The translations under genes and the position numbers were made by a program. From Nocardioides nitrophenolicus (GTDB taxonomy: Bacteria > Actinomycetota > Actinomycetes > Propionibacteriales > Nocardioidaceae), in the NCBI RefSeq assembly GCF_016907515.1, contig NZ_JAFBBY010000001.1, forward strand, positions 1,426,001-1,490,000: 64,000 nt of DNA, given 5' to 3'. How positions within the stretch are numbered: position 1 is the stretch's first letter; the number at the start of each line of letters is the position of its first letter. The notes under the pieces were generated by a model. That model worked only from the letters and a program-made list of their open reading frames with translations. It was not told the origin of the DNA and did no database searches. Of the stretch, positions 2,134-63,761 are shown in pieces.

Positions 2134-2159
2134 GATCAATGCATATTATTAGCATCAAC
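2134..2159. promoter_or_regulatory. AT-rich operator/promoter island a
   Basis: An AT-rich block (read on the minus strand: TAATAATATGCATTGATC) in a GC-rich background, midway between the divergent LLM and ACAD genes. It is one of twelve related islands in the window and probably carries a -10 element overlapping an operator. Proposed by comparison only. Confidence 0.55.
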
Positions 2160-2204
2160 CGGCGACAGCCCGCCAGACTCGGCAGACCAGGAACGAGGAC
2201 GCCC

Positions 2205-3371
2205 GTGGACTTCGGCACCGACTCCCTCCATGAGGACATCCGCTCGGCGGTCCGCGAGATGATGAAGCCGTTCGACGACCAGTACTGGATGGAGCACGAC
2301 CGCGACCACGCCTTCCCGTGGGAGTTCTACGACGCGGTCGCCCAGGCCGGCTGGCTCGGCATCACCATCCCCGAGGAGTACGGCGGCGGCGGGCTGGGCG
2401 TGACCGAGGCCGCGATCGTCGAGCACGAGATCTCCGCATCCGGCGGCGGCATGAACGCCTGCAGCGCCGTGCACATCGGCATCTTCGGGCTCGACCCGAT
2501 CATCCGGCACGGCTCGGAGGACCTGAAGCGACGCTTCCTCCCCCGCGTCCCGAACGGGGACCTGCACATCTCCTTCGCGGTGACCGAGCCGGACGCGGGC
2601 ACCGACACGACCGGCATCTCGACCTTCGCCCGCAAGGTCGACGGCGGCTTCCGGGTGACGGGCAAGAAGGTCTGGATCACCAAGGCCCAGCAGGCCGAGC
2701 GGATGATGCTCCTGGTGCGGACCACCAAGCGCGAGGACTGCGTCAAGCGCACCGACGGGATGACCCTGCTGTTCGCCGAGCTCGACCCCGCGCACGTGCA
2801 GATCCGCGAGATCCCCAAGCTGGGCCGCAACTCCGTGAACACCAACGAGCTGTTCATCGACGACCTGTTCGTCGCCGACGAGGACGTCGTGGGCGAGGTC
2901 GGCAAGGGCTTCAAGGCGATCCTGTCCGGCCTCAACGCCGAGCGGATCCTCGCGTCCAAGGCCGCGCTCGGGATCGGCCGCGCCGCCGTACGCCGGGCGA
3001 CCGAGTACGCCAACGACCGCGAGGTCTTCGGGCGCCCGATCGGCCAGAACCAGGCCATCGCCCACCCGATCGCAGAGGCGATGATGCGGCTCGACGCCGC
3101 CGAGCTCATGGTCGACAAGGCCGCCTGGCTGCTCGACCACGGCTTCGAGTGCGGCAAGGAGGCCAACATGGGGAAGTTCCTGGCCGCCGACGCCGCGTTC
3201 TTCGCCGCGGACCGGGCGCTGCAGACCCACGGCGGCTTCGGCTACGGCAAGGAGTTCCACGTCGAGCGCTACTTCCGCGAGGCCCGCCTCAAGCGCCTGT
3301 CCCCCATCAGCCAGGAGATGGTGCTCAACTACCTCAGTGAGCACGTCCTCGGCCTGCCCCGCTCGTACTGA
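2205..3371 (+). CDS. Acyl-CoA dehydrogenase
   Basis: 388 aa flavoprotein that would introduce an alpha-beta double bond into an acyl-CoA. It has the ACAD signature FAVTEPDAGTD near residue 128 and YANDREVFGRPIGQNQ in the C-terminal helical domain. The GTG at 2205 follows GAGG with good spacing and matches the start of its paralogue at 28479-29645 (same length, same LPRSY end); an upstream ATG at 2139 would read through the operator. The usual YEGT Glu loop is replaced by SPISQEM. A Glu-Arg pair at residue 246 (NAERI) matches the isovaleryl-CoA dehydrogenase position of the catalytic base. It leads a unit with a CitE-like lyase and a MaoC protein. Confidence 0.9.
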   Translation: MDFGTDSLHEDIRSAVREMMKPFDDQYWMEHDRDHAFPWEFYDAVAQAGWLGITIPEEYGGGGLGVTEAAIVEHEISASGGGMNACSAVHIGIFGLDPIIRHGSEDLKRRFLPRVPNGDLHISFAVTEPDAGTDTTGISTFARKVDGGFRVTGKKVWITKAQQAERMMLLVRTTKREDCVKRTDGMTLLFAELDPAHVQIREIPKLGRNSVNTNELFIDDLFVADEDVVGEVGKGFKAILSGLNAERILASKAALGIGRAAVRRATEYANDREVFGRPIGQNQAIAHPIAEAMMRLDAAELMVDKAAWLLDHGFECGKEANMGKFLAADAAFFAADRALQTHGGFGYGKEFHVERYFREARLKRLSPISQEMVLNYLSEHVLGLPRSY

Positions 3372-3413
3372 GCTACCCGCCCACGCCACCGACCGCCGTA
3401 CCCAGGAGTCCTC

Positions 3414-4307: not shown

Positions 4308-4357
4308 CCCGCACCCCCACCCCACCGACCCACGCACCGCACCCAGAAGGAGACATC

Positions 4358-4813
4358 ATGGCCGGCCTGTACTTCGAGGACTTCGAGATCGGCAAGCACT
4401 ACAAGCACGAGTGGTCCCGGACGGTCACCGAGACCGACACGATCCTCTACTGCGGCATCACCATGAACCCCGCGCCGATCCACCTGGACCAGCACTACAT
4501 GGAGGGCACCATCCACGGCCAGCGCCTGGTGCCGAGCCTGTGGACCGCCGGGGTCATCGGCGGCATGATCGTGCCGGACCTGACCCTCGGCACCACCCTG
4601 GGCAACCTCGGCTACACCAAGTTCGACTTCCCGAAGCCGGTCTTCCACGGCGACACCCTGCGGGCCGAGAGCACCATCCTCGACAAGCGGGAGTCCAAGA
4701 GCCGCACCGACTCGGGCATCGTCTACTTCGAGCACATCGGCCTCAACCAGCGCGACGAGGTGGTCCACATCGCGCACCGTGCGGGCCTCATGCTCCTTCG
4801 GCCGACCGCCTGA
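4358..4813 (+). CDS. MaoC-like hot-dog dehydratase
   Basis: 151 aa single hot-dog domain, the usual length for MaoC-type (R)-specific enoyl-CoA hydratases or mesaconyl/itaconyl-CoA hydratases. The ITMNPAPIHLDQHYMEGT segment matches the hydratase motif with Asp and His. ATG at 4358 follows AGAAGGAG. It is the last gene of the ACAD, CitE-like, MaoC unit. Itaconyl-CoA-type pathways pair a MaoC hydratase with a CitE-like lyase, so a hydration step before the lyase is likely. Its 3' end overlaps the convergent amidohydrolase by 26 nt. Confidence 0.85.
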   Translation: MAGLYFEDFEIGKHYKHEWSRTVTETDTILYCGITMNPAPIHLDQHYMEGTIHGQRLVPSLWTAGVIGGMIVPDLTLGTTLGNLGYTKFDFPKPVFHGDTLRAESTILDKRESKSRTDSGIVYFEHIGLNQRDEVVHIAHRAGLMLLRPTA

Positions 4814-5651
4814 GCCGGTAGGTCTCCACCGCGACCCCACGCAGGATGCGGTCCTGCTCGGCCGGCGAGAGCCGAGCGAGCAGGACCCGCACGGCGTCGA
4901 CCGTGCGGGCGTACTCCCCCGCGCGACGGCTCACCGGCCAGTCCGACCCGAAGAGCAGCCGGTCCGGACCGAACACGGCCAGCAGGTGGTCGACCCACGG
5001 CTCGAGGTCGGCGATGCTCCAGCGCGCCGGGTCGGCCATCGTGGTCAGTCCCGAGAGCTTGACCCGGAGCTGGGGCAGCTCACCCAGCCGGGCGACCAGC
5101 CGCGCCCACTCCCGGCCAGCCGGCGTACGCCAGCCGCCGGCGACGGGCGGCTTGCCCGCGTGGTCGAGGACCCAGTGCAGCTCGTCGTACGACGCCACCA
5201 CGCCCGCGCACAGCTCGAGCTGGGCCGGGCGCAGCATCAGGTCGCAGGCCAGGTCGCGCTCGGCCAGGGCCCGGGGTCCGGGACCGGCGGCGAAGGCGGC
5301 CAGCCAGGCGCCGGGGTCGGCCTCGGCCTGTGCCTGGTGCCGTACGCCGACCAGTGGACCCCGCGCGGCGAGCTCGTCGAGGCGGTCGCCGACGTCCGGC
5401 GCCAGCAGGTCGGTCCAGCCCACGACCCCGGCCAGCCGGTCGGTGCGCGCGGCGAGGTCGAGGAAGTCCGTCGTCTCGTCGGGATCGTTGACCACCTGCA
5501 CGAGCACCGCCTCGGCCACCCCGGCGGCGTCCAGCCCGGCCTCGAGCTCGGGCCACTCGTGGTCGCGGTGGATGAGCGCCATCGTGGCCGGGTCGAGCCA
5601 GGGCTGCGGCCGGTCGCCGAGCCGCCACAGGTGGGCATGGGCATCGATCAC
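4788..5651 (-). CDS. Amidohydrolase 2 family protein (lactonase-like)
   Basis: 287 aa metal-dependent hydrolase of the amidohydrolase_2 family, which includes 2-pyrone-4,6-dicarboxylate and fuconate lactonases and some decarboxylases. The N-terminal IDAHAHLW gives the HxH metal pair, VLDHAGKP a further His, and LLFGSDWPV the C-terminal Asp typical of the family. It is transcribed alone on the minus strand, divergent from the TMADH-like gene, and overlaps the MaoC gene by 26 nt at the 3' end. A ring-opening or lactone-hydrolysing role would suit the cluster but is inferred. Confidence 0.8.
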   Translation of the reverse strand: MIDAHAHLWRLGDRPQPWLDPATMALIHRDHEWPELEAGLDAAGVAEAVLVQVVNDPDETTDFLDLAARTDRLAGVVGWTDLLAPDVGDRLDELAARGPLVGVRHQAQAEADPGAWLAAFAAGPGPRALAERDLACDLMLRPAQLELCAGVVASYDELHWVLDHAGKPPVAGGWRTPAGREWARLVARLGELPQLRVKLSGLTTMADPARWSIADLEPWVDHLLAVFGPDRLLFGSDWPVSRRAGEYARTVDAVRVLLARLSPAEQDRILRGVAVETYRLRRSAEGA

Positions 5652-5724: not shown

Positions 5725-5749
5725 GTTAGTAATAATCATACGCATCTAT
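5725..5749. promoter_or_regulatory. AT-rich operator/promoter island b
   Basis: TAATAATCATACGCATC-type island between the divergent amidohydrolase and TMADH-like genes, ending just before the GGAGGA ribosome site at 5751. It shares TAATAATCAT with the islands at 63735 and 15669 (reverse). It probably serves both directions. Confidence 0.6.
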
Positions 5750-5759: not shown

Positions 5760-7757
5760 GTGTCGGACCCGGGCTCCAGCCACCCCCATCTCTTCTCGCC
5801 CATCCGCGTGGGGACGATGGACCTCCGCAGCCGGGTCATGCTCCCACCCCATGCCTCCGCGATCGGCAACATCTACGGCACCGAGGACGAGGCCCGCCGC
5901 AACATCGCCTACTTCGAGCAGCGGGCCGAGGCGGGCGTGGCCTGGGTGGGCAGCCTGTCCACGCACGTGCGCAACCACCTGATCCCCGGCTTCGAGCCCA
6001 CCGGCGTCGGCGCCGCGACGACCGGCTTCTTCCGGCTGCCCTTCTTCGTCGAGCGGGTGCAGGCCTTCTCCGACGCGATGCACGCCCGGGACACCTGCGT
6101 GACGGTGCAGATGGTCCACCAGGGCGGGATGCCGCACGGCGCCTCGCCCGTGATGAGCGCCCCCGTCATCAACCTGATGCCGCACGTGATGGACACCGAC
6201 GACATCGCCGCCTTCGTCGCGGAGTACGCCGCCTCGGCCCGGCTCGCGATGGAGGGCCGCGCCGACGGCGTCGAGCTCCACCTCAACCACGACGACCTCC
6301 ACGAGTGGTTCCTCTCGGCCTACACCAACCACCGCGAGGACGCGTACGGCGGCTCCCTCGAGGCCCGTGCCCGCTTCTCGGTCGAGTGCCTGCGGGCCAT
6401 CCGCGACGTCGTCGGCAGCTCGATGACGGTCGGCATCCGGCTCAACATCCGCGAGGAGATGCCGGAGGGCTACGACGTCGACGGCGGCGTGGAGCTCGCG
6501 CAGTATCTCGAGTCCACCGGCCTGATCGACTACGTGCACGGCGTGGTCGGCTCGCCCTGGGGCAACCCGAGCTACATCCAGCCCACCTACTTCGAGCCGG
6601 GCCGGTTCTCCTCGCTCGCGCAGCGCTTCAAGGACGCGCTGAGTCTCCCGGTCGTGCACACCGGCCGGATCACCTCCCCACGGGTCGCGGAGGACATCCT
6701 CGCGGCGGGGCACGCCGACATCGTCGGCATGGCCCGCGCCCACATCGCCGACGGCGACCTGCTGGTCAAGGCCCGCGAGGGCCGCGAGGACGAGATCCGC
6801 CCGTGCGTCGGCGGCAACGAGTGCATCAGCCGGCGCTATGTCGAGGGCCTGCCGTTCGGGTGCGCGGTCAACCCCGGCACCAGCCACGAGGTCGACGTGC
6901 CCTGGCCGAGCGTCGCGCCGCGCCGCCTGCTGGTCGTCGGCGGCGGCCCCGCCGGCATGGAGCTCGCCGCGCTGAGCGCCGAGGCCGGCTTCGAGGTCGA
7001 CCTGCGCGAGCGCGAGCCGGAGCTCGGCGGTCAGCTGCGCTACGTCATCCGCGCGCCGCGCCACGAGGGCTATGCCGCCTATCTCGACTGGCAGGTACGC
7101 CGGCTGGCCGGCCTGGGCGTCACGGTCACGACGGGCGTGGAGGTGAGCGCCGACGACGTGCGGGCCAGCGGGGCCGACGTGGTCGCGATCGCGACCGGTG
7201 CCCGCGCCCGTCGGCCCGCGATCGCCGGCGTCGACGCACCGCACGTGCTCGACAGTCGCGACGTCCTGGCCGGCGCGGCCGCCCCGGGCGGCCCCGGCTC
7301 CCGAGTGCTGGTGATCGCCCAGGACGACCACGTGGCTCCGCTCTCGGTCGCCGACCACCTCGCCGAGGCCGGTCACGAGGTGACCGTCTGCTACGCGACC
7401 CACCAGCCGGCGCCGCTGCTCGGCCGCTACATCATCGGCGGCATCCTCGGCCGCCTCGACGCCCGCGACGTCCGGATGGTCTTCATGGAGGAGGTGGTGC
7501 GGATCGACGGCCCGAGCGTGACCACCCGCAACGTCTACTCCCAGAAGGTCCGTCCGCTCGGGGAGTTCGACGCCGTCGTCCTCGCCTGCGGCAGCGTCTC
7601 GGAGTCCACGCTCTACGACGAGCTGCGCGGCAGCCTCCCCGAGCTGCACATCCTCGGTGACGCCTACGCACCACGCCGCCTGGTGTTCGCCACCCGCCAG
7701 GCCTACGCGCTCGCCGAGCAGCTCGCCGCCACCCACCGCGCCGCGGCGCTCGCCTGA
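5760..7757 (+). CDS. OYE/TMADH-type NADH:flavin oxidoreductase (2,4-dienoyl-CoA reductase-like)
   Basis: 665 aa, the size of multidomain Old Yellow Enzyme proteins (FadH, trimethylamine dehydrogenase). Residues 1-345 form the FMN barrel (HLFSPIRVGTMDLRSRV start, NHREDAYGGS). An iron-sulfur segment follows at 349-368, then an FAD/NAD(P) module from about residue 390 (VVGGGPAGMELA). The cluster region follows TMADH spacing (C-x2-C-x2-C-x12-C), but the second Cys is Gly: C349, G352, C355, C368. A classical 4Fe-4S site therefore lacks one ligand. GTG start with GGAGGA close upstream. Likely role: reduction of an enone or dienoyl-CoA. It is first in a unit with an SDR. Confidence 0.85.
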   Translation: MSDPGSSHPHLFSPIRVGTMDLRSRVMLPPHASAIGNIYGTEDEARRNIAYFEQRAEAGVAWVGSLSTHVRNHLIPGFEPTGVGAATTGFFRLPFFVERVQAFSDAMHARDTCVTVQMVHQGGMPHGASPVMSAPVINLMPHVMDTDDIAAFVAEYAASARLAMEGRADGVELHLNHDDLHEWFLSAYTNHREDAYGGSLEARARFSVECLRAIRDVVGSSMTVGIRLNIREEMPEGYDVDGGVELAQYLESTGLIDYVHGVVGSPWGNPSYIQPTYFEPGRFSSLAQRFKDALSLPVVHTGRITSPRVAEDILAAGHADIVGMARAHIADGDLLVKAREGREDEIRPCVGGNECISRRYVEGLPFGCAVNPGTSHEVDVPWPSVAPRRLLVVGGGPAGMELAALSAEAGFEVDLREREPELGGQLRYVIRAPRHEGYAAYLDWQVRRLAGLGVTVTTGVEVSADDVRASGADVVAIATGARARRPAIAGVDAPHVLDSRDVLAGAAAPGGPGSRVLVIAQDDHVAPLSVADHLAEAGHEVTVCYATHQPAPLLGRYIIGGILGRLDARDVRMVFMEEVVRIDGPSVTTRNVYSQKVRPLGEFDAVVLACGSVSESTLYDELRGSLPELHILGDAYAPRRLVFATRQAYALAEQLAATHRAAALA

Positions 7758-15637: not shown

Positions 15638-15668
15638 GTCAGCGGCAGGCTCCTCCGCACTCAACGGT

Positions 15669-15695
15669 GCATATCTTGATCATGGTTATCCTCAA
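15669..15695. promoter_or_regulatory. AT-rich operator/promoter island c
   Basis: Read on the minus strand it contains GGATAACCATGATCAAGATA, almost the same as islands k (55787) and d (23987). It sits in the 59 bp between the MFS gene and the P450, so the P450 operon probably has its own promoter although genes upstream run the same way. Confidence 0.65.
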
Positions 15696-21610: not shown

Positions 21611-22773
21611 CGCTCGCCCTCCGCCTCGAAGTCCTTGACCAGCTTCTTGGCGAGGGAGTCGAGGATGACCTCGGTGGAGCCCTCGTAGATCCGCATCGGC
21701 CGGGCGTCGCGGTAGAAGCGCTCGATGTCGCTGCCGCGCACCAGTCCGAACCGGCCCATCACCTGGACCGCGCGGTCGACGACCCGACCGCATGCCTCGG
21801 TGGCGCCCACCTTCGCGATCGACGACAGGTGCAGGCCGGCGAGCGGGTCGCGGGCGGAGGCCGCGGCGGCGCGGTAGGTCATCGCGCGCGCCATCTCGAT
21901 CTCGACCCAGCAGCTCGCCAGCGACTCGGGTACGCCGCCCAGCCGGGCCAGCGGCTTGCCGAACAGCTCGCGCCGGGTGGCGTGCCCGAGCGCCTCGCGC
22001 AGCGCGGCCTCGGCCAGGCCGACCGCGGCTCCGGCCACCGAGACCCGGAAGGTGGCCAGGGTCTGCAGCATCAGGCCGAAGCCCGCGCCGGCCTCGCCGA
22101 TGCGGTGGTCGAGCGGGACCCGCACGTCCTGGAGGACCACGTCGCCGAGCACATGGGGCGCGATGATCTGGTGCGGCGAGGTGACGCTGACCCCTGGCGC
22201 GTCGGCCGGCACGAAGACCAGCGAGTAGCCGGCGCCCTCCTTGGCCAGGATGGCGAAGAAGGAGGCGTCGGGAGCATTGGTGATGAACGACTTGTGCCCG
22301 TTGACGACCAGCGCGCCGTCCTCCTCGACCACGGTGGTGGAGATCGCGCGGAGGTCGGAGCCGACGTCGGGCTCGGTCAGGCCGATGGCGGCGACCGCCT
22401 CCAGCGAGGCGACGCGCGGGAGCCACTCCTTGCGCACGCTCTCGCTGGCGGCACGGGTGACGCAGAAGCTGCCGATGCCCTGCATCGCGAACATCGAGTC
22501 GAGATGGGCGCTCACCCCGGCGAGCGCCTCGCGGACCACCGTCACCGCGAGTGCGTCGACGGCCTCGAACCGGCCGCCGTACTCGGCCGGTACGACGACC
22601 CCGGCGAGACCCGAGGCGACCAGCCGCTCCCGCACGTCGGGGTCGAACCGGTCGGCCTCGTCGGCGCGCGCCGCGATGTCCCGACAGGACTCGGCGAGCG
22701 CCCGCGCCTCGGCCTGCAGGTCGAGATAGCGCTGGGGGAGCTGGAACAGGGCCGTCTCGTCGTCGCCGGTCAC
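21607..22773 (-). CDS. Acyl-CoA dehydrogenase
   Basis: 388 aa ACAD with IGLTEPDVGSDLRA in the middle domain and the canonical catalytic loop RIYEGSTEVI (Glu364) near the end. The helix-G position that carries Glu in the two 388 aa paralogues is FRVSV here, so this one uses the usual C-terminal base. GTG at 22773 overlaps the stop of the ACAD upstream. Two different ACADs in tandem suggest either a heteromer or two successive dehydrogenations. Confidence 0.9.
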   Translation of the reverse strand: MTGDDETALFQLPQRYLDLQAEARALAESCRDIAARADEADRFDPDVRERLVASGLAGVVVPAEYGGRFEAVDALAVTVVREALAGVSAHLDSMFAMQGIGSFCVTRAASESVRKEWLPRVASLEAVAAIGLTEPDVGSDLRAISTTVVEEDGALVVNGHKSFITNAPDASFFAILAKEGAGYSLVFVPADAPGVSVTSPHQIIAPHVLGDVVLQDVRVPLDHRIGEAGAGFGLMLQTLATFRVSVAGAAVGLAEAALREALGHATRRELFGKPLARLGGVPESLASCWVEIEMARAMTYRAAAASARDPLAGLHLSSIAKVGATEACGRVVDRAVQVMGRFGLVRGSDIERFYRDARPMRIYEGSTEVILDSLAKKLVKDFEAEGER

Positions 22774-23951
22774 TTGATGATCGCCTCCGCGGGCCGCTGG
22801 TTGAAGTTGCGGCCGAACATGTCCGCGGCGATCCGGACCCGCTGGATCGCCGGCGTGCCGCCTGCGATGGCCCAGCCGTGGGAGTCACGGTGCAGCCGCT
22901 CCAGACCGTACTCCTCGGTGTAGCCGTTGCCACCGTGCATCTGCATGCCGAGGTCGGTCACCACCTTGGCCATCTCGTTGGCGTAGCACTTCGCCAGGGA
23001 GGTCTCGTAGGAGTTGGGCAGGCCGGCCCCCGCGTTGACCGCGGCCCGGTAGATGAGCAGCCGGCTCGCCTCGACCTGCATCGCCATGGTGGCGACGGTC
23101 ATCTGCACGTTCTGGAACTCGATGAGGGGGCGGCCGAACTGGTGCCGCTCCTCGACGTAGCGACGGGTCCGGTCCAGCGCCGCCTGCGCCAGGGCCAGCG
23201 ACATGGTGGCATTGCCCAGGCGCTCGATGGCGAAGACGCCGAAGAGCTTGCTGAAGCCGCCGGCCTCGACGACCAGGTCGCCGATCGGCACCCGCACGTC
23301 GTCGAAGTAGATGTCCGCGCTCGGGATGCCGCGGAAGCCCATCAGCTTCTCGGTCGCGCCGAACGAGACGCCGGGGGCGTCGGCCGGCACGATCACCGCG
23401 CCGATCCCCTTGGAGCCGGGCTCGTCGTTGAGCCGGCAGTAGACGAGGTAGTGGCTGGAGGCTCCGCCGTTGGAGATCCAGCGCTTGTTGCCGTTGATCA
23501 CGATCTCGTCGCCCTCGATCCGGGCGCGGGTCTTCATGTCGGTCGCCGCGGAGCCGGCGTCGGGCTCGGAGATGCCGATCGCCATCTCGAGGTCACCGGT
23601 GGCGACCTTGGGCAGGTACTCCTTCTTCTGCTCCTCGGTGCCGAAGAACTCCAGGACGCGGCACGGGCCGACATTGGACTCGAAGACGTGGAAGGCCGCC
23701 TGCCGGTTCTCCTTGGCGATCTCCTCCTGCACGATCAGCGCGTCGAGCAGCGAACCACCGTGGCCGCCGTACTCCTCCGGGGTGGTGATCCCGAGGAAGC
23801 CGAGGTCGGCGAGGCGCTTGAGCTCGTCGTGGGGCAGGGGGGTGCGGTTGAGGTCCCAGTCGGCCGCGAGGGGCGCGTACACCTCCACCGCCACCTGGCG
23901 CGCGAGCTCGCGCAGCTGCTTCTGCTCCGGGGAGAGGTCGAATCCGAACAC
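22770..23951 (-). CDS. Acyl-CoA dehydrogenase
   Basis: 393 aa ACAD with IGISEPDAGSAATDM, RRYVEERHQFGRPLIEFQ and MQMHGGNGYTEEYG. Where most members have YEGT it reads AGGTPAIQ, so the usual Glu is Gly; Glu243 in AIERLGN is at the isovaleryl-CoA dehydrogenase position and may be the base. The GTG at 23951 follows AGGAGA. An ATG at 24032 opens the frame earlier but would translate the operator island. First gene of an eight-gene coupled unit. Confidence 0.9.
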   Translation of the reverse strand: MFGFDLSPEQKQLRELARQVAVEVYAPLAADWDLNRTPLPHDELKRLADLGFLGITTPEEYGGHGGSLLDALIVQEEIAKENRQAAFHVFESNVGPCRVLEFFGTEEQKKEYLPKVATGDLEMAIGISEPDAGSAATDMKTRARIEGDEIVINGNKRWISNGGASSHYLVYCRLNDEPGSKGIGAVIVPADAPGVSFGATEKLMGFRGIPSADIYFDDVRVPIGDLVVEAGGFSKLFGVFAIERLGNATMSLALAQAALDRTRRYVEERHQFGRPLIEFQNVQMTVATMAMQVEASRLLIYRAAVNAGAGLPNSYETSLAKCYANEMAKVVTDLGMQMHGGNGYTEEYGLERLHRDSHGWAIAGGTPAIQRVRIAADMFGRNFNQRPAEAIIK

Positions 23952-23986: not shown

Positions 23987-24016
23987 GGATGATAACTATG
24001 ATCACCATATAGATAG
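23987..24016. promoter_or_regulatory. AT-rich operator/promoter island d
   Basis: GATAACTATGATCACCATAT between the divergent ACAD (minus) and SDR (plus) genes. One of the clearest copies; it shares ATGATCAC with islands k and f. Confidence 0.68.
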
Positions 24017-33312: not shown

Positions 33313-33340
33313 CTATTCTGACAATGATCCGCCTAGATAC
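33313..33340. promoter_or_regulatory. AT-rich operator/promoter island e (weak)
   Basis: CTATTCTGACAATGATCCGC between the divergent SDR and SnoaL-like genes. It keeps an ATGATC core but is the weakest of the twelve islands. Confidence 0.4.
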
Positions 33341-35257: not shown

Positions 35258-35273
35258 TCGAACATATGTTCGA
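35258..35273. promoter_or_regulatory. LexA (SOS) box
   Basis: TCGAACATATGTTCGA is a perfect 16-bp palindrome that fits the actinobacterial/Gram-positive SOS box TCGAAC-N4-GTTCGA exactly. It lies 48 bp upstream of the DUF222/HNH start codon, a normal operator distance. 13E12-family genes in mycobacteria are often LexA-controlled. Confidence 0.85.
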
Positions 35274-37770: not shown

Positions 37771-37794
37771 GATCTGTGATCATGATTACACGAG
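37771..37794. promoter_or_regulatory. AT-rich operator/promoter island f
   Basis: GTGATCATGATTACACGAG, on the minus strand GTGTAATCATGATCAC, about 45 bp upstream of the PPOX gene. TAATCATGATCAC is close to the consensus. Paired with island g in the same intergenic region, each facing its own gene. Confidence 0.66.
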
Positions 37795-37826: not shown

Positions 37827-37850
37827 TAGGATAATGATGATCATCAATGA
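37827..37850. promoter_or_regulatory. AT-rich operator/promoter island g
   Basis: GGATAATGATGATCATCAAT upstream of the thiolase, including the perfect palindrome TGATGATCATCA (37835-37846). The palindromic copy suggests a dimeric regulator. Confidence 0.68.
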
Positions 37851-41451: not shown

Positions 41452-42656
41452 GCCATCACCTCCGTCTTGAGCACCGAGCGGTGCCGGTCCATGTCCTTCC
41501 AGCCCAGTGCGTCGTCCGCGATCAGCACCGCCTGGATGTTCGCCGAGCCCTCCCCCGTCTGCCAGAGCTTGGCGAAGTTGAGGTAGAGCCCGATCGGGAG
41601 GTCGTCGCTGAACGCCGCACCCCCGAAGATCTCGGCGGTCGCCTGCGCCGCCCGGTTGCAGACCTCGCCCGCGTAGTACTTGGCGATCGAGCTCTGCCGG
41701 GTCGCCAGGTCGCCGTCGTCGTAACGGGCGGCCGCGGCCTGCACCAGCGAGCGGGCGGCGGCGACCTCGACCGTCATGTCGGCCAGCTGCTTCTTGACCA
41801 TCTGGAAGGAGCCGATCGGCTCGCCGAAGGCCGTGCGCTGGTTGGCGTACTCCAGCGCGGCGTCGAGGCAGGCCTGCGCCAGGCCGACCGAGCGGGAGGC
41901 CACGGTCAGGCGGCCGTAGTCCATCGCGTTCATCGCCACGACGAAGCCACCTCCCTCCTCGCCGAGCACGGCGTCCGCCGGCACCCGGACGTCGGTGAGG
42001 CTGACCGCGTTGGTCGGCATCAGCTTGCCGAGGCCCCGGCAGGGCACCCGGGTCGCCTCGAAGCCGGGAGTGTCGGTCGGCACCAGGAAGGCCGTGACGC
42101 CCCGGTGCCCCGCGGCGGGGTCGGTCTTGGCGTAGACGATGACCACGTCGGCCACGTTGGCGTTGGTGATCCACAGCTTCGCGCCGTTGATGACGTAGGA
42201 GTCCCCGTCGCGGACCGCGCGGGTGCGCATCGCGCCCAGGAAGTCCGACCCGCCGTCGGGCTCGGTCATCGCGTTGGCGCCGAGCAGCTCGCCGCCGATC
42301 AGTCCCGGCACCCAGCGCTCGGCCTGGGTGGGCGAGCCCCAGTTCGCGATGGTCAACGGGACCGTCGCGGCCTGCAGGTTCATCGACGCGGACAGCGGCG
42401 GATAGACCCAGGCCAGCGACTCGGACACCGCGGCCAACGCCCGGAACCCGGCCCCGGTGCCGCCGTACCGCTCGGCGAAGCAGCAGCCGAAGAAGCCCAG
42501 CTCACCCATCTCGCGATAGAGGTCGCGCGGGAACTCCCCAGCGGCCTCACGGTCGGCTACGGTGGGCCGCACTTCGCGAAGGCCCCAGGAGCGGACCAGC
42601 GCGCCGATCTCAGCGGCCACGGACTCCTGGTCGTCCCTCTCGGTTGTTGCGGTCAT
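41448..42656 (-). CDS. Acyl-CoA dehydrogenase
   Basis: 402 aa ACAD: NAMTEPDGGSDFLGA, LWITNANVADVVIV and YANQRTAFGEPIGSFQ. The catalytic loop reads WQTGEGSANIQ with Glu369 in the canonical place; the helix-G site is DYGRL (no Glu). ATG at 42656 follows AAAGGGA. Co-transcribed with the BadI/MenB-like crotonase, it would fit dehydrogenation of an alicyclic acyl-CoA before ring opening. Divergent from the GntR gene. Confidence 0.9.
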   Translation of the reverse strand: MTATTERDDQESVAAEIGALVRSWGLREVRPTVADREAAGEFPRDLYREMGELGFFGCCFAERYGGTGAGFRALAAVSESLAWVYPPLSASMNLQAATVPLTIANWGSPTQAERWVPGLIGGELLGANAMTEPDGGSDFLGAMRTRAVRDGDSYVINGAKLWITNANVADVVIVYAKTDPAAGHRGVTAFLVPTDTPGFEATRVPCRGLGKLMPTNAVSLTDVRVPADAVLGEEGGGFVVAMNAMDYGRLTVASRSVGLAQACLDAALEYANQRTAFGEPIGSFQMVKKQLADMTVEVAAARSLVQAAAARYDDGDLATRQSSIAKYYAGEVCNRAAQATAEIFGGAAFSDDLPIGLYLNFAKLWQTGEGSANIQAVLIADDALGWKDMDRHRSVLKTEVMA

Positions 42657-42751: not shown

Positions 42752-42775
42752 TCTGTAATAATGTTCGGCATCGAT
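42752..42775. promoter_or_regulatory. AT-rich operator/promoter island h
   Basis: TCTGTAATAATGTTCGGCATC, 19 bp before the GntR start codon. It resembles island a (TAATAAT core) and overlaps the likely -10 of the regulator gene, as expected for autoregulation. Confidence 0.5.
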
Positions 42776-42793: not shown

Positions 42794-43552
42794 ATGACGT
42801 CTCTGAACCAGTCGGCGGCGCAGCGGCCGCCGAAGGCAGCCATGCTGGTGGCCCAGCGGATCGTCCAGGACGCCCTGCGCGCGGGACTCGGGGAGGGCGA
42901 CCTGCTGGCGCCCGAGAAGGTGATGCTGGAGAAGTACCAGACCGGCCGCGGGACGCTGCGCGAAGCGCTGCGCCTGCTGGAGTTCCAGGGAGTCATCGCC
43001 CTCAAGCCCGGTCCCCGCGGCGGCCCGGTCCTGCAGAGCCCCAGCGCCACCCACCTCGGCAGCACGCTGGTGCTGCTCATGCAGCTGCGCTCGGCGCCCT
43101 TCCGGACGATCGTCGAGGTGCGCTCGGCCGTGGAGCCGATGATCAGCAGCATGGCCGCCAACAAGATGACCGACGAGGAGCTCCTCGAGCTGCGCGGCAC
43201 GGTCGACCAGATGCGCGACGAGATCGACGACCAGTACTCCTTCCTCGACGCCAACAAGCGCTTCCACGACGTCATCGCCTGGTCGTCCGGCAACGCGCTG
43301 TTCGGCTACCTCATCGAGTCGCTGCTCTCGATCATGGACGGCACCCTGATCGGCATCGACTACCCGCAGTACCGCCGCGAGGCGATCCTCAAGGCCCACC
43401 AGGAGATCTACGACGCCCTCGAGTCCCGCGACCCCGATGTCGCGATGGACCGGATGCGCGAGCACATCCAGGCCTACGAGCGGTACGCCGAGCGCAAGTT
43501 CCCCCAGGTGATGAACGAGATCATCCCGTGGGAGCAGCGCTTCTTCTCCTGA
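42794..43552 (+). CDS. GntR family regulator, FadR/FCD subfamily
   Basis: 252 aa. N-terminal winged helix about residues 15-80 (LLAPEKVMLEKYQTGRGTLR, EALRLLEFQGVIAL) followed by a helical FCD ligand-binding domain (VRSAVEPMISSMAANKM, DANKRFHDVIAWSSGN, HQEIYDAL, MREHIQAYERYAE). FCD proteins bind carboxylates, often with a metal held by Asp/His, and usually repress. ATG at 42794 follows GGAGGG. It is the only DNA-binding regulator in the window and is flanked by island h, so it is the leading candidate for control of the whole cluster. Confidence 0.9.
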   Translation: MTSLNQSAAQRPPKAAMLVAQRIVQDALRAGLGEGDLLAPEKVMLEKYQTGRGTLREALRLLEFQGVIALKPGPRGGPVLQSPSATHLGSTLVLLMQLRSAPFRTIVEVRSAVEPMISSMAANKMTDEELLELRGTVDQMRDEIDDQYSFLDANKRFHDVIAWSSGNALFGYLIESLLSIMDGTLIGIDYPQYRREAILKAHQEIYDALESRDPDVAMDRMREHIQAYERYAERKFPQVMNEIIPWEQRFFS

Positions 43553-47100: not shown

Positions 47101-48291
47101 TCACTCGCCAGAGCCCTCGTAGAGGATGTGCTCGCCGCCGTCGCGGTACTCGATCACGACGCCGGGGACCACGAGGTCCTGGTCGACCCACTTCAGGTCG
47201 GTGCCGAGCGCGCCGTCGAAGGACGACTCGGCGACCTTGGCCATCGCGTCCTTGATCGACTCGCGGTCGGCGGACTGCGCCTCCTTGAGCGAGCGGGCGA
47301 GGAACCACGCGGCGTCGTACGCCTCGGCCGCGTAGTTCAGCGGCGCCTCGCCGTACTCGTCCTGGTAGAGCTTCGTGAAGGTCTGGCTCGACTCCGCCGA
47401 CATCGCCGAGTTGAAGTCGGCCGCCCACACCATGCCGTCGGCGTCCGCGCCGGCCGGCTTGAGGTTGCCGGCGCTGGCGCCCGAGTTGCCGAGCACCGGG
47501 CCGTCGTACCCGGCCTGGCGCAGCTGCGTCATCGCGGTCGGGTTGGACGCGCCCACCAGCAGGATCGAGACGATGTCGGGCTTGGACTTGAGGATCTGCG
47601 AGATCGGCGCGGAGAAGTCCTGCGTGGTCGCCTGGGTGCCGACCGAGGCGGTGACCTCGATGCCGAGGTCCTTGGCCATGCCCGGCAGGGTGTTCTTGCC
47701 GATGTCCTGCAGGGTCGGCGTGGCCTCGGTGTAGATGATGCCGATCGACTTGGCGCCGCTGTCCTTCAGGTACTTGGTCAGGTTGGTGTAGTACTCGCGC
47801 ATCAGCGGCGTCGCGCGCCAGGTGTAGTCACCGACCACGACGCCGTCCGAGCCGGCCTGGGTGTAGATGGTCGGCATCTTCTGCTTCTCGGCCAGCGGCG
47901 ACATGGCCACCGCCTCGTTGCTGGAGACCGAGCCGAAGACGGCCGAGATGTCGCCGCCGGTGGTCGCCTTGGTCATCTCCTGGGCAGCGGTCTGGGGCTC
48001 GCTCTTGGTGTCCTTGAGGTCCAGCTCCAGCTTCGAGCCCTCGAGGAAGTCGGTGTCGTTGATCTCCTTGATCGCCAGCTGGTAGCCCTTGTTGGCCGAG
48101 TTGCCGGCGAAGGCCACCACGCCGGTGGTCGGGTTGATCGACACGACCTTGATGGTCTTGGGCAGCTCGTCGCCCGCGGCCGGTCCGGCACCGCTTCCCG
48201 ACCCGCCACACGCAGACAGGGCGAACAGCGCGACCGCCGCCACCCCCGCCGCGGCTCCGCGACGCGTTCCGCGCCCGAAGATCCGGCCCAT
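47101..48291 (-). CDS. livK: Liv-type substrate-binding lipoprotein
   Basis: 396 aa periplasmic-binding-like protein, membrane-anchored: signal peptide with lipobox LSAC (Cys28), followed by a Gly/Ser linker. The mature part matches type 1 Liv-family binding proteins (VVSINPTTGVVAFAGNSANK, GYQLAIKEIND, VFGSVSSNEAVAMSPLAEK). ATG at 48291 follows AGGAGG; longer frames upstream are ignored because they cross the promoter. The ligand is probably the cluster's substrate or a derived acid. Confidence 0.9.
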   Translation of the reverse strand: MGRIFGRGTRRGAAAGVAAVALFALSACGGSGSGAGPAAGDELPKTIKVVSINPTTGVVAFAGNSANKGYQLAIKEINDTDFLEGSKLELDLKDTKSEPQTAAQEMTKATTGGDISAVFGSVSSNEAVAMSPLAEKQKMPTIYTQAGSDGVVVGDYTWRATPLMREYYTNLTKYLKDSGAKSIGIIYTEATPTLQDIGKNTLPGMAKDLGIEVTASVGTQATTQDFSAPISQILKSKPDIVSILLVGASNPTAMTQLRQAGYDGPVLGNSGASAGNLKPAGADADGMVWAADFNSAMSAESSQTFTKLYQDEYGEAPLNYAAEAYDAAWFLARSLKEAQSADRESIKDAMAKVAESSFDGALGTDLKWVDQDLVVPGVVIEYRDGGEHILYEGSGE

Positions 48292-48310: not shown

Positions 48311-48342
48311 TTGATATTCATGCGCATCATTCGCATGTGATC
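48311..48342. promoter_or_regulatory. AT-rich operator/promoter island i
   Basis: TTGATATTCATGCGCATCAT and the following CGCATGTGATCC, 20 bp upstream of the livK start codon. Contains two half-site-like units (ATGCGCATCAT and CGCATGTGATC). Probably the livK promoter/operator. Confidence 0.55.
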
Positions 48343-48570: not shown

Positions 48571-48596
48571 TCCATGATTATGATAAGAATCATCTT
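48571..48596. promoter_or_regulatory. AT-rich operator/promoter island j
   Basis: ATGATT (48574-48579) and AATCAT (48588-48593) form an inverted repeat with an 8-nt spacer, 28 bp upstream of the LLM start. A good dimer-binding site candidate. Confidence 0.65.
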
Positions 48597-48620: not shown

Positions 48621-49652
48621 ATGCAGATCGGCGTGATCCTGGGCGACGTCCATGCGAGCGTGTCCCCCGTCGACCACCTCGACGGGCTGCTGCGCCAGGT
48701 CGAGGCCGCCCAGCGGGCGGGCGTCAGCCACATCACCATGGGCCAGCACTTCCTCTACGGCGACCTGCGCTGGCTCCAGCCGATCCCGACCCTGGCCCGG
48801 ATCGCCGCGGAGCTCGACGACCACGTCACCGTGGCGACCACCGTCGTCCAGGTGCCGCTGTACCACCCGGTGATGCTGGCCGAGGATCTCGCGACCCTCG
48901 ACATCCTCACCCGCGGGCGGCTCGTCGTCGGTGCCGGCGCCGGCTACCGCGAGGACGAGTTCGTCGCGCTCGGCGTCGACTTCTCCCGCCGTTTCGCGAT
49001 GTTCGACGAGGCGATCGAGCTGATGAAGCAGGCCTGGACCGCCGACACCGTCGAGTTCGAGGGCGCCTTCTGGACGGTCCGCGACGGCCAGCCGCACATC
49101 CGCCCGGTCCAGTCGCCCCACCCCCCGATCTGGATCGGCGCCCTCAAGGACCAGGGCGTACGCCGCTCGGCCCGGTTGGGCGACGGCTGGCCGATCACCC
49201 CCGAGACCCGGCTGCCCGAGCTGCTCCGGCTGCTCGCCGTCTACGAGGACGAGCGTGAGCGCCTGGGTCGACCCCAGGTCAAGCACCCGCTGCGGCGCGA
49301 GATCATCCCGGCCGCCACCACCGACGCGGCCTTCGCCCGCTTCGAGGGGATGGCCAAGGAGCGCCTCCTCGCCTACGCCAACCGCCAGCTCGCGACCCGC
49401 GACGCCGACGAGATCGCCCGCGAGTTCAGGGAGGTCGCCCGCAAGGAGACCTTCATCGGCACCCCCGACGAGTGCGTCGCCCAGATCACCGAGTTCGCCG
49501 CCCTGGCGCCGGTCGACACGATCCTGGTCCGCGCCCAGTGGCCGCACATGAGCTCGGACGAGGTGGTGGCCTACCTCGACGACCTCGGTCGCGACATCGT
49601 CCCCGCCGTCGCTGGCATCAGCAGCGTGAACCGGGTGGTCAGGCCGGGCTGA
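48621..49652 (+). CDS. Luciferase-like (LLM) flavin-dependent monooxygenase
   Basis: 343 aa LLM protein: MQIGVILGDVHASVSP, TMGQHFLYGDLRWLQPIP, GRLVVGAGAGYREDEF and SPHPPIWIGALKDQGVRRSAR match the other three copies. ATG at 48621 follows AGAGGCGAG. A single-gene unit, with its 3' end overlapping the convergent racemase by 14 nt. Cofactor and reaction as open as for its paralogues. Confidence 0.87.
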   Translation: MQIGVILGDVHASVSPVDHLDGLLRQVEAAQRAGVSHITMGQHFLYGDLRWLQPIPTLARIAAELDDHVTVATTVVQVPLYHPVMLAEDLATLDILTRGRLVVGAGAGYREDEFVALGVDFSRRFAMFDEAIELMKQAWTADTVEFEGAFWTVRDGQPHIRPVQSPHPPIWIGALKDQGVRRSARLGDGWPITPETRLPELLRLLAVYEDERERLGRPQVKHPLRREIIPAATTDAAFARFEGMAKERLLAYANRQLATRDADEIAREFREVARKETFIGTPDECVAQITEFAALAPVDTILVRAQWPHMSSDEVVAYLDDLGRDIVPAVAGISSVNRVVRPG

Positions 49653-55486: not shown

Positions 55487-55678
55487 TCAGTCGACCTCGA
55501 TGGCCAGCTCCGGGCAGCTGTCGGCCGCGAGCTGCGCCTCGTCCTCCTGGCCCGCCGGGACGATCTCGTCCTTGACGTAGGCGTTGCCGTCCTCCTCGCG
55601 CGCGAAGAAGAGGTCGGGCGCGCTGATCCGGCACAGACCGTGACCCTGGCACCGCTCGTCGTCGACCTTGACCCGCAT
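55487..55678 (-). CDS. P450-type [3Fe-4S] ferredoxin
   Basis: 63 aa acidic ferredoxin of the kind that serves actinobacterial P450s. The cluster ligands are Cys10, Cys16 and Cys55 (CQGHGLC, then SCPELAI); His13 stands where a fourth Cys would be, as in several mycobacterial P450 ferredoxins, so a 3Fe-4S cluster is expected. ATG at 55678. Divergent from the P450 at 55848 and probably the electron carrier between it and the reductase at 58809. Confidence 0.9.
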   Translation of the reverse strand: MRVKVDDERCQGHGLCRISAPDLFFAREEDGNAYVKDEIVPAGQEDEAQLAADSCPELAIEVD

Positions 55679-55786: not shown

Positions 55787-55812
55787 GAGTATAACCATGA
55801 TCACATTCATGG
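55787..55812. promoter_or_regulatory. AT-rich operator/promoter island k
   Basis: TATAACCATGATCACATTCA between the divergent ferredoxin and P450 units. One of the strongest copies of the consensus; TATAAC could double as a -10 element. Confidence 0.68.
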
Positions 55813-61306: not shown

Positions 61307-61312
61307 GCACGC

Positions 61313-61378: not shown

Positions 61379-61948
61379 TCAGACCCAGGCGCGCAGCCAG
61401 TCGCTGCCGGCGTCGGAGCGCAGCGTGACCGGCCAGTCCGCCGGGCGCTGGTCGCCATAGGCCCGCACCGCCCGGTCGCCGTGGCCGAGCTCGGACAGCT
61501 CGGCGATCGGCAGGTAGTACATGTAGGACATCGTGCGCGCCGAGAACCTCCAGCGCCCGCCGTCGCGGCGGTACTCGTCGACGTACCGCAACGCGACCTG
61601 CATCGCCACCCCGTTGCGGTCCACCTCGGCGTGGCTGGCGAGCAGCCCGCGGGCCAGGTCCGGGTCGGCGGCGTCGAACCGGACGACGTGGCCATGGCTG
61701 AAGTGGTTGGTCGGGCCGAGGGCCGCGAACCGGCCGAGATAGGTCTCGACGATGGCGTCCAGCCCGTCGGCCGCGAAGACGCCGTCGGCCGAGCGGAGGG
61801 TCGCGTCGGCCGTGAAGATCCGCCGGATGCCCTCCTCGTCGCGCTCGTCCATGATGTAGCCGTAGAGCACGGCCAGCTCCTGGATCTCGGCCCGGTCCTC
61901 GGCGCGCTGCAGGCGCCGGAGCAGGTCGGTGTCGGCGGTCGCGGTCAT
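61379..61948 (-). CDS. SnoaL-like (NTF2-fold) protein
   Basis: 189 aa: RAEIQELAVLYGYIMDERDEEGI and IFTADATLRSADG are the family's opening blocks; the middle (LGPTNHFSHGHVV) and WRFSARTMSYMYYLP end fit as well. ATG at 61948 overlaps the KstD-like stop. It has the same end (RELRFMYNLP/RTMSYMYYLP) as the SnoaL-like protein at 33354, so those two are relatives. Likely an isomerase or hydratase acting with the flavoprotein. Confidence 0.8.
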   Translation of the reverse strand: MTATADTDLLRRLQRAEDRAEIQELAVLYGYIMDERDEEGIRRIFTADATLRSADGVFAADGLDAIVETYLGRFAALGPTNHFSHGHVVRFDAADPDLARGLLASHAEVDRNGVAMQVALRYVDEYRRDGGRWRFSARTMSYMYYLPIAELSELGHGDRAVRAYGDQRPADWPVTLRSDAGSDWLRAWV

Positions 61949-63672
61949 GCTCGGTTCTCCTTGGTGGTGGTCGGGACCGGGTCGCCACACAGCTCCCGGC
62001 TGACGAGATAGGCGAGGGCGAGTCCCCGCCCGAGGGCGATGCCGGAGTTGTAGCCGGTGCCCACCGTGGTCAGCGCCGCGCACGAGCCGACGGCGTACAG
62101 CCCGGCGATCGGCGTACCGCTCTCGTCGAGGACGTGACCGTCGCCGTCGATGTGCACGCCGCTCGAGCCGATGCCGGTGCCGACGAAGCGCAGCCGGAAG
62201 CCGTGGAAGGGCGCCTGCTCGATCGGGCCGAGCACCGGGTTGGGCTGCTGGGCGGGGTCTCCGGCGAAGCGCCGGACATAGGCGACCGAGCCGCGGCCGA
62301 AGTCGGGGTCCTCCCCGGCCCGGGCGTGCTCGCTGAACGCCGCGGCACTCACCTCGAGCTGCTCGCCGTCGATGCCGAGCGCCGCGCCGAGCTCGCGCAG
62401 GGTGGCGGCCGAGGTCACCAGCCCGTCCGGGTAGTCGCCGCCCGGCGGGGTGACCCCGAGGCCGTACTTCTGGTGGTGCTGCTCGTCGAAGACGAGGAAG
62501 AACGGGAGGTGCGGGTCGTCGGGAGCCATCGTCTTCGCGACGATGTCGACCCAGTAGGAGTCGTCGCAGTAGCGGCGACCGGTCCGGTCGACGATCATCG
62601 CGTGCGGCATGGCGTAGTCGGGGCCGTAGGCGTAGCCCGAGCCGATGCTGGACTTCCACCCGGGAAGCATCGGGATGGCCGTGGGCGGGAGGACGGCGAC
62701 CGCTCCCCCGACCGAGCGGGCGAGCCGGATGCCGTCGCCGCGGATGCTGTCCGGGGCGACGCTGCCGAAGTCGTCCTCGCCGAGCCCCACGAGCTCGCGC
62801 ACCAGCTCGGCGTCCCAGTCGTAGGTGCTCGTGGCCAGCACCACCGGCCCGCGGCGCTCGACGACGGCGCCGTCGGGGGAGGTGGCCCGCAGGCCCAGGA
62901 CGTCGCCGGATCCGTCGGCGAGGAGCTCGGTGACCGGGTGGCCGGTGTGGATGGTGATCCGCTCCTCGCGCAGCACCCGGCGCAGGAAGCTCGCCACGAC
63001 GCCGGTCCCGAAGGTCAGCGGATCGCCGCTGCGCTCCTCCGCTCCGGCGTCCTCGCGCCGCTCGGGGAGCCCGAACGCCTGGACGCCGGCCTGCTCGTCA
63101 CCCGTCTCGTTGTCGTCGACGTAGGTGAGCCGGCGGCCCTTCACGAACATGTCGGCGTAGGTCGTGCCCACCGGGAAGTAGGGGCTGACCCGCAGCCGGT
63201 CGCGCCACTCGCCGAGCTCGCCGCCGTCGATGACCTCGTTGGTCAGGTAGCGCCCCGCGGGCAGGGCGCCGTCCGCCTCGTTGTGGTAGTCGGCGAGGCC
63301 GGGGATGACCGTCCAGCGGATCGCGCCCTCGTCCTCCCAGTACTTCGTCGCCTCCGGGGAGACGGCGAGCCAGCGGCGCAGCGCGTCCTCGTCGAGCACC
63401 TCGGGATGGTCGTGGGCGATCGCCCGGACGTAGCGCTCGGCGAGCTCGAGGGTGTCGTCCTCGATGCCCTCGCGACGGGCCACGTGGTTGGCGCCCACCC
63501 AGACCTGGCCACCCGAGTAGGCGGCCGCGCCGCCCACCAGGTCGGCCGCCTCGAACACCTCGGCGCTCCCGCCCCGCAGCGCCACCCCGAGCGCGGTCGC
63601 CAGGCCGGACAGCCCGGCCCCCACGACGAGCACCGCGGTGTCCTGGGCGCTGGCACTTCCTCCGGTCGTCAC
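61945..63672 (-). CDS. FAD-binding dehydrogenase (fumarate reductase/KstD family)
   Basis: 575 aa: FAD motif VVGAGLSGLA with GG(A/S)A in VGGAAAYSGGQVWVGAN, a large substrate domain and the C-terminal GLYAVGSCAALTT loop. The active-site loop reads GTGYNSGIALGR: Tyr is kept but the Gly four residues on is Ile, unlike the KstD-like protein at 57172, so the reaction may differ. The GTG at 63672 follows AGGAG and is preferred to the GTG at 63717. Divergent from the KorA-like gene. Confidence 0.82.
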   Translation of the reverse strand: MTTGGSASAQDTAVLVVGAGLSGLATALGVALRGGSAEVFEAADLVGGAAAYSGGQVWVGANHVARREGIEDDTLELAERYVRAIAHDHPEVLDEDALRRWLAVSPEATKYWEDEGAIRWTVIPGLADYHNEADGALPAGRYLTNEVIDGGELGEWRDRLRVSPYFPVGTTYADMFVKGRRLTYVDDNETGDEQAGVQAFGLPERREDAGAEERSGDPLTFGTGVVASFLRRVLREERITIHTGHPVTELLADGSGDVLGLRATSPDGAVVERRGPVVLATSTYDWDAELVRELVGLGEDDFGSVAPDSIRGDGIRLARSVGGAVAVLPPTAIPMLPGWKSSIGSGYAYGPDYAMPHAMIVDRTGRRYCDDSYWVDIVAKTMAPDDPHLPFFLVFDEQHHQKYGLGVTPPGGDYPDGLVTSAATLRELGAALGIDGEQLEVSAAAFSEHARAGEDPDFGRGSVAYVRRFAGDPAQQPNPVLGPIEQAPFHGFRLRFVGTGIGSSGVHIDGDGHVLDESGTPIAGLYAVGSCAALTTVGTGYNSGIALGRGLALAYLVSRELCGDPVPTTTKENRA

Positions 63673-63734
63673 ACCATCACTCCTGTCGCTGTCGCGGCCG
63701 CCGCGGGCCGACGGCACCGGCCCCTCGCGCTAGC

Positions 63735-63761
63735 AGGATAATCATATTCATGGATAATGGT
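63735..63761. promoter_or_regulatory. AT-rich operator/promoter island l
   Basis: GGATAATCATATTCATGGAT between the divergent flavoprotein and KorA-like genes. Shares GATAATCAT with islands b and g; extends the putative regulon to the right edge of the window. Confidence 0.65.

Follow-up and report, generated by a model that had tools for sequence, protein, structure and literature searches.

A conserved AT-rich dyad in the promoters of a catabolic gene cluster of Nocardioides nitrophenolicus and its candidate GntR/FCD regulator

FadR is an FCD repressor of the GntR superfamily. In actinobacteria, TetR proteins control many of the regulons for catabolism; KstR and similar regulators belong to that family, and in these regulons one repressor acts on many scattered operators. 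In Pseudomonas, the TetR-family repressor AtuR governs acyclic terpene utilisation, and its cluster encodes AtuA-type proteins and acyl-CoA dehydrogenases. Atu1419 of Agrobacterium fabrum is a GntR/FCD protein that controls the region for hydroxycinnamic acid degradation; its operator is the 10-bp sequence ATGTATACAT, placed over the -10 box and between the -35 and -10 boxes (PMC7797058). The present work concerns a stretch of 64 kb (72% GC) of the genome of Nocardioides nitrophenolicus, called here the window, most of which is spanned by a catabolic cluster that encodes a GntR/FCD regulator, and a set of AT-rich dyads in the promoters of that cluster.

The dyads are concentrated in the cluster, are conserved in relatives and are linked to the regulator gene across genera. 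We consider it probable that they are the operators of one regulon, which would be repressed by the cluster-encoded GntR/FCD protein and released by a pathway intermediate. As with Atu1419, a winged-helix GntR protein with an FCD domain goes together with multiple palindromes per regulon that lie on core promoters, its own promoter region included. Unlike the 10-bp site reported there, the site here is a longer AT-rich dyad of 15-16 bp and occurs in ten promoter regions over 60 kb. The window shares AtuA (PF07287) and AtuA-ferredoxin genes with the AtuR cluster, although its regulator is of the GntR/FCD and not the TetR family. The predicted arrangement of one repressor, scattered operators and one large catabolic cluster is like that of KstR, which is of the TetR family and has an unrelated operator sequence. 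The operator strings matched no paper in the literature searched, which left subscription journals mostly outside. That literature contains no description of the operator, of the regulator clade or of the pathway; the kind of system, an FCD-GntR repressor with a palindrome, is already known.

A shared dyad concentrated in the cluster

An initial annotation of the window had listed twelve AT-rich islands resembling the consensus TAAYNATGATCAY, and all twelve were found within a few bases of where it had put them. The two dyads it had singled out, TGATGATCATCA at 37835 and ATGATT-N8-AATCAT at 48574, are both real. The resemblance to the consensus holds, with a 15-16-bp dyad (TGATnATnATnATCA or AATnATGATCATnATT) as the more fitting form of that consensus. 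Two of the twelve islands, those at 33.3 and 42.75 kb, score poorly in the window and were retained for their conservation. Islands had been assigned to ten divergent regions and to the leader of a P450 gene (15.67 kb): the leader is confirmed, and the divergent regions number nine by our gene calls, made with our own script, two of them (37.8 and 48.4 kb) carrying two islands each. The cluster and its predicted sites are as follows, with identities given for four relatives (genomes G079, G085, G068 and G192).

220 to 63717: catabolic cluster (Pfam/NCBIfam scans)
2140 to 2154, between luciferase-like 1071-2123 (-) and acyl-CoA dehydrogenase 2184-3371 (+): predicted operator TGCATATTATTAGCA, 18.7 bits with the relatives-only matrix; 15/15 identical in G192, 12/15 in G068, 4/15 (absent) at the probable paralogs of G079 and G085
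5730 to 5744, between amidohydrolase 4788-5651 (-) and OYE-type flavoprotein 5760-7757 (+): predicted operator TAATAATCATACGCA, 18.5 bits; 15/15 in G192, 13/15 in G085, 8/15 in G068
15668 to 15691, leader of P450 gene 14366-15637 (-): two overlapping operator-like 15-mers (15668, 15677), 16.8 bits; 17.6 and 19.3 bits with the wider matrix; 12-13/15 in G068 and G079
23990 to 24004, between acyl-CoA dehydrogenase 22770-23951 (-) and SDR 24054-24830 (+): predicted operator TGATAACTATGATCA, 19.6 bits; 15/15 in all four relatives, with flanks at 43-68%
33319 to 33333, between SDR 32459-33253 (-) and SnoaL-like 33354-33932 (+): weak predicted operator TGACAATGATCCGCC, 11.0 bits, the maximum of the region; 13-14/15 kept in relatives, the Plantactinospora version being TGACAATCATGCGCC
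37777 to 37791, before PNPOx-like 37149-37727 (-): predicted operator TGATCATGATTACAC, 17.9 bits with the wider matrix; 10-14/15 in relatives
37829 to 37843, before thiolase 37866-39050 (+): predicted operator GGATAATGATGATCA, 22.9 bits with the wider matrix; 10-13/15 in relatives; TAGGAT overlaps its left end
42756 to 42770, before the GntR gene and acyl-CoA dehydrogenase 41448-42656 (-): degenerate predicted operator TAATAATGTTCGGCA, 11.5 bits, 14.0 with the wider matrix; 11-12/15 conserved, other species showing TGCTAATGTTTGGCA and similar forms
48312 to 48326, before ABC substrate-binding protein 47101-48288 (-): predicted operator TGATATTCATGCGCA, 17.0 bits with the wider matrix, and a further match at 48321; 12-13/15 in three relatives with flanks at 53-61%, so that its rank is not outstanding
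48575 to 48589, before luciferase-like 48621-49652 (+): predicted operator TGATTATGATAAGAA, 21.0 bits; 10-12/15 in relatives
55789 to 55803, before P450 55848-57122 (+) and ferredoxin 55487-55678 (-): predicted operator GTATAACCATGATCA, 16.4 bits; 14-15/15 in four relatives
63736 to 63750, between FAD-dependent oxidoreductase 61945-63717 (-) and the next gene, 63809 (+): predicted operator GGATAATCATATTCA, 20.0 bits; 10/15 against 27% in the flank in G192, the sole relative with a usable ortholog

Exact TAAYNATGATCAY has four matches in the window (23993, 37776 on the reverse strand, 37832 and 55792) and none elsewhere in the 5,815,017-bp genome. The relaxed form TAAYNATNATCA occurs five times in the genome (5.8 Mb), each time inside the window. 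When up to three mismatches to TAAYNATGATCAY are allowed, all islands match, within a total of 84 matches, where shuffled sequence would lead one to expect 15.4; taken alone, so loose a consensus carries little weight, because many of these matches are coding GATGATC/ATCATC runs. The consensus had been derived from the window and was therefore tested with motif material from elsewhere. A de novo search of 62 upstream regions from three clusters of relatives, without coding bases and with a second-order background, gave the palindrome tgatnATsATnatca, and the window alone gave AtgatnaTsAtnatcaT. The relatives' set held no window region, and window sequence entered the background model only. A search with 30 coding bases per region, which returned mostly codon-like patterns, was replaced. 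The loose dyad TGATNATNATNATCA was likewise discarded as a marker of co-occurrence: at up to two or up to three mismatches it had 104 and 1135 matches in the own genome, dominated by GAT/ATC/ATG codon runs, and 55-239 loose matches were found per genome in 59 genomes of the genus.

The relatives-only matrix (three other Nocardioides species) was scanned against the promoter regions in 1.26 Mb of the genome, window included; 19 of the 506 upstream regions were dropped as too short and 487 were scored. A score of at least 16 bits was reached in 8 of the 18 window regions and in 2 of the 469 others (p = 2.6e-11). Among regions matched for an AT-rich island (AT fraction of at least 0.62 over 24 bp) the counts were 8/10 in the window and 2/68 elsewhere (p = 8e-8). 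A smaller initial run, read at a threshold of at least 14 bits, had given 7/20 in the window against 0/129 and 0/46. The motif search and matrix scan that the initial annotation had proposed thus place the motif in the window, as it had expected, at more than a chance frequency, and within the 1.26 Mb scored the motif does better than AT-rich promoter sequence. A wider matrix was built from seven relatives, including four with promoters homologous to the window's; its top 11 places in the 64 kb are all islands of that annotation.

Conservation and linkage to the regulator gene

Upstream regions of orthologs in the four relatives were aligned without reference to the motif; 9 of the 60 gene-genome pairs were dropped for lack of a match, low identity or a late alignment start. 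In the remaining 51 pairs, the 15-bp sites were identical at 634 of 765 positions (83%) and the flanks at 2550 of 5011 (51%). Ranked among all 15-bp windows, the site was in the top tenth for 34 of the 51 pairs. Kept among the 51 are the pairs of the 2184 gene in G079 and G085, which at 66-68% identity look paralogous and are without the site.

The initial annotation had named a GntR protein as the candidate binder. The protein in question is the following:

42794 to 43552, + strand: GntR/FCD (FadR-type) transcriptional regulator, the proposed binder (PF07729 and PF00392)

Its FCD domain (PF07729) matched at E 1.3e-25 over residues 106-226, and its winged helix (PF00392, residues 19-73) was borderline, at 27.1 bits against a cut-off of 27. 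Among 15 homologs, D152 is nearly invariant and H158, H202 and H224 are invariant; we take this Asp-His-His-His set to be the metal-site residues of the FCD pocket. The stretch that we presume to be the recognition helix is invariant in the same 15 homologs. Its relatives of solved structure in the PDB, NanR, PdhR and others, show a weak likeness (best E 7e-15). GntR/FCD is the only regulator family that appeared in the Pfam scans of the cluster, which covered 60 of the 61 called genes and two small genes added afterwards, at thresholds of 1e-5 to 1e-12.

Orthologs of the regulator (E <= 1e-50) are present in 28 of 215 congeneric genomes, the own genome included, and four distant ones (54-57% identity) sit in related, rearranged clusters. 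The form of the site found at the second P450 gene, TATAACYATNATCA, occurs in 11 of the 28 genomes with the regulator and in 1 of the 187 without it (p = 2.7e-10), the latter being G004, an assembly of 460 contigs that is 85% complete. In the 11 genomes, the own genome counted, there are 12 matches, of which one may be an assembly duplicate; their distances from the regulator gene are 3.5-50 kb. Exact TAAYNATGATCAY has nine matches in the four close relatives, one of them maybe an assembly duplicate, at 6-57 kb from a regulator gene whose product is 83% (G079), 82% (G085), 74% (G068) and 66% (G192) identical to that of the window. In G152 the TAAYNATGATCAY match is on a different contig, and G231, with 69% regulator identity, has none. 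The upstream region of the regulator gene itself carries the motif at 8 bits or more in 19 of the 28 orthologs, a level that 57 of the 469 background regions also attain; these rates can be compared only loosely, since the ortholog stretches (330 bp) are longer than most background regions, and three of the 28 promoters were in the matrix training set. The linkage to its orthologs over the 215 genomes, to their own promoters and to other genera points to the GntR protein as the candidate binder.

Two oddities of assembly concern these loci. The single contig of G085 ends in 200 bases (L125) that repeat a stretch near its start (L121), a repeat that could reflect overlapping ends left in the assembly or a duplication of the P450 promoter. 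In Nocardioides sp. TF02-7 the regulator ortholog (G192:C1:2643322-2644089; L057/L155) has three in-frame TGA codons; sequencing errors are a possible cause, and the genome is listed as 70% complete.

A scan of a genome collection gave 27 loci with a regulator ortholog, three of them in Nocardioides. The genera represented include Rhodococcus, Gordonia, Amycolatopsis, Prauserella, Plantactinospora, Planosporangium, Virgisporangium, Nonomuraea, Streptomyces, Conexibacter and Aeromicrobium, together with metagenome-assembled genomes (MAGs), one from Chloroflexi among them. In the 24 loci outside Nocardioides, a match of at least 14 bits stood upstream of 52 of 108 homologs of window genes (at least 55% identity) and of 14 of 122 non-homologs in the same loci (p = 5e-10), counts that are not independent, because one region can serve both genes of a divergent pair and congeneric strains have a common descent. 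The de novo consensus across genera was tgataATsATtatca. The sequence TGCTAATnTTnnnCA is the regulator's own site in several other species and stands in the GntR promoters of some other genera.

Proposed operator function and rival explanations

The reading that we favour, that one regulon is formed by these sites, as the initial annotation had suggested, is the best supported. The GntR/FCD protein would bind as a dimer to the 15-16-bp dyad (TGATnATnATnATCA or AATnATGATCATnATT) on the core promoters of ten regions, namely nine divergent pairs, including that of the regulator itself, and the P450 leader, which together may serve up to 19 transcription units and be controlled in both directions of each pair. 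When the substrate is absent, the bound protein would block RNA polymerase. A pathway intermediate, likely an acid or its CoA thioester, would enter the FCD pocket and free the repressor, and its release would lead to joint induction of the 60-kb pathway, importer included. The whole pathway is probably switched in this way by one regulator, which seems unstudied.

The placement of the sites is compatible with such a repressor. The element TATAAC[CT]ATNA[TG]CA occurs 26 times in 25 records, mostly ahead of homologs of the second P450 gene, and by eye count TTGACA lies exactly 14 bp upstream in 17 of the 26 and at 12 bp in one, so the element covers the -10/+1 region; TTGACT stands at 10 bp in three others and no box is visible in five. 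In the window, the 55789 site has TTGACA 14 bp ahead of TATAACC, and the 2140 site has TTGACC upstream and TAGCAT overlapping. Paired or cooperative binding is suggested at 15668-15691 in the P450 leader and at 48312-48335 in the promoter of the ABC binding-protein gene, where two 15-mers overlap.

Several results weigh against a single regulon under the GntR/FCD protein. In 17 of the 51 ortholog pairs the site falls short of the top tenth, as happens with the 48312 and 37829 sites. The harshest control was that of column-permuted palindromic matrices, which matched the real count in 4 of 300 trials on a background sample of 150 regions. The islands at 33.3 and 42.75 kb reach just 11.0 and 11.5 bits, the latter score marking the window's copy at the regulator promoter as degenerate. 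The centre of symmetry of the 15-16-bp dyad is ambiguous: the even-centred AATnATGATCATnATT was likelier than the odd-centred TGATnATnATnATCA at lengths 16, 18 and 20 on the relatives' set, and neither was clearly better in the window alone. The repressing role is deduced from the position of the sites only. As many as 17 of the 28 regulator-bearing genomes are without TATAACYATNATCA, in which the operator would have drifted or the P450 unit be missing. Exact TAAYNATGATCAY is found in just 6 of the 28 genomes with the regulator and in 5 of the 187 without (p = 8e-4; 5/27 against 5/187, p = 4e-3, when the own genome is excluded). The matrix does not reach 8 bits in nine of the 28 ortholog promoters, of which three are devoid of any AT-rich stretch, and one of the 19 that pass has its match at the start codon. 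Among the 24 non-Nocardioides loci, two, of Virgisporangium (L141) and Aeromicrobium (L160, 42% identity), have no match of at least 10 bits; the Conexibacter locus (L159) has none of at least 14 bits.

Three other explanations were considered. The islands could be nothing more than the usual AT-rich core promoters (-10 elements) found in DNA of high GC content, without a specific operator in common. They do overlap core positions, as the TTGACA spacing and the TTGACC and TAGCAT boxes at 2140 indicate, and the permuted matrices that equalled the real count are in keeping with this. Nevertheless, AT-matched regions elsewhere seldom reach 16 bits, and this control led us to reject the explanation; TGATAACTATGATCA is kept in full in four species within far less conserved flanks, and the motif recurs at the same genes in other genera. 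We give it hardly any credence. The sites might instead be boxes of a metal regulator of the Fur family (Fur or Zur), with the cluster under metal or iron control. The Fur/Zur box is a dyad of the form 7-1-7, and TGATAATnATTATCA, which we take to be its sequence, is nearly the same as the cluster motif: both can be read as odd-centred AT-rich 15-bp dyads with TGA...TCA ends, and the cross-genus consensus is close to it. Moreover, the two best background matches, at 2311371 and 2312354, lie beside genes whose products are a Peripla_BP_2 binding protein and a FecCD permease, a kind of target typical of the Fur family. However, the Pfam-scanned proteins of the window include no Fur-family domain, the window targets are catabolic enzymes and a branched-chain-type importer and not metal uptake or storage genes, and a near-universal metal regulator leaves unexplained why TATAACYATNATCA follows the GntR ortholog. 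Many conserved cluster sites also violate that box: TGCTAATGTTTGGCA, TATAACCATGATCA and TGCATATTATTAGCA depart from it, and TATAACCATNATCA, TGCTAATnTTnnnCA and again TGCATATTATTAGCA misfit a TGA[AT]AATnATT[AT]TCA-like form in spite of the similar overall consensus. Raised by the likeness of the boxes and disfavoured by the linkage to the regulator, this explanation appears very improbable.

A real regulon could also have its binder encoded outside the cluster, for example in the TetR family, with the GntR gene merely one of its targets. The prevalence of TetR proteins in actinobacterial catabolism and the weak site of the GntR gene itself (11.5 bits) speak for this. Pfam scans of 60 of the 61 called genes found no TetR domain, and for the no-match genes 24830 and 36757 no Pfam domain was found even at 0.01. 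The regulator lies within motif-bearing clusters of several genera, though by construction, as the loci were fetched by the regulator; the reverse search of the 215 genomes, which started from the motif, arrived within 50 kb of the regulator in 11 of 12 genomes, and the putative recognition helix is invariant in 15 homologs. An outside binder is improbable in our judgement, and the cluster-encoded GntR/FCD protein is the binder we propose.

In the own genome, the dyads GAGAATCATTCTC and AATGATAATCATT (L086:11371-12369; G000:C1:2311371, 2312354) resemble boxes of the Fur family, and the cluster matrix gives them 16.7-17.7 bits. Since the two best matches outside the window thus belong to a FecCD/Peripla_BP_2 transporter, genome-wide scans with the matrix will catch such boxes.

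A wider conclusion seems to us somewhat more plausible than its contrary: that the master switch of a complete, uncharacterised pathway for terpenoid or alicyclic acids would be a GntR/FCD regulator not studied so far, whose AT-rich double-dyad operator of 15-16 bp is unusually long, and that the regulator-operator pair would have been kept across Actinobacteria and beyond (Nocardioides, Rhodococcus, Gordonia, Amycolatopsis, Prauserella, Plantactinospora, Planosporangium and a Chloroflexi MAG, more weakly Conexibacter). The operator could then read off the whole pathway in any of those organisms. With a single operator definition, the 60-kb region would acquire boundaries, a named candidate for its regulator and the form of a testable pathway; in several other genera, corresponding gene sets are marked by this operator too. 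The discovery of the substrate would also become practical, since a reporter of the 55789 or 37829 promoter would reveal the inducer, and such a promoter is a biosensor candidate. The locus would further be a case of a GntR/FCD operator that drifts between species while regulator and pathway remain together.

The catabolic cluster and neighbouring features

By Pfam, the cluster encodes acyl-CoA dehydrogenases, AMP ligases, class III CoA-transferases, thiolases and enoyl-CoA hydratases, as well as HpcH/HpaI, MaoC, AtuA (PF07287) and AtuA-ferredoxin proteins, two P450s and a ferredoxin. Luciferase-like oxidoreductases, KstD-like flavoproteins and a branched-chain-type ABC importer were also recognised by Pfam/NCBIfam. 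For the NCBIfam comparison of cluster proteins only sub-threshold matches, KstD/4-oxocyclohexanecarboxylate-dehydrogenase-like and mycofactocin-OYE-like, were obtained, and setting P450 sequence against solved structures gave no further pointer to a substrate. A fair guess for the candidate substrate is an isoprenoid or alicyclic acid.

The regulon cluster of one relative (G018) contains a mycofactocin biosynthesis operon (L044:13930-18193), whose members are MftB, a radical SAM maturase of the MftC type, MftD, MftE and a mycofactocin-coupled SDR, all above curated cut-offs. The clusters of G036 and G023 have genes that match this operon in size and order. The L044 operon suggests that mycofactocin-dependent alcohol oxidation may be part of the pathway.

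A DUF222 gene (PF02720) is embedded in the catabolic cluster. The initial annotation had given this DUF222/HNH gene a LexA box in place of the operator, which agrees with our scan: the operator matrix reaches 2.4 bits at most in its upstream region.

35258 to 35273, upstream of the DUF222 gene 33936-35210 (-): LexA-type box TCGAACATATGTTCGA, exact, the sole match in the window

The box is a perfect palindrome and fits what we take to be the actinobacterial LexA consensus. Homologs of the DUF222 gene (48-52% identity) are also found within the clusters of G014 and G023.

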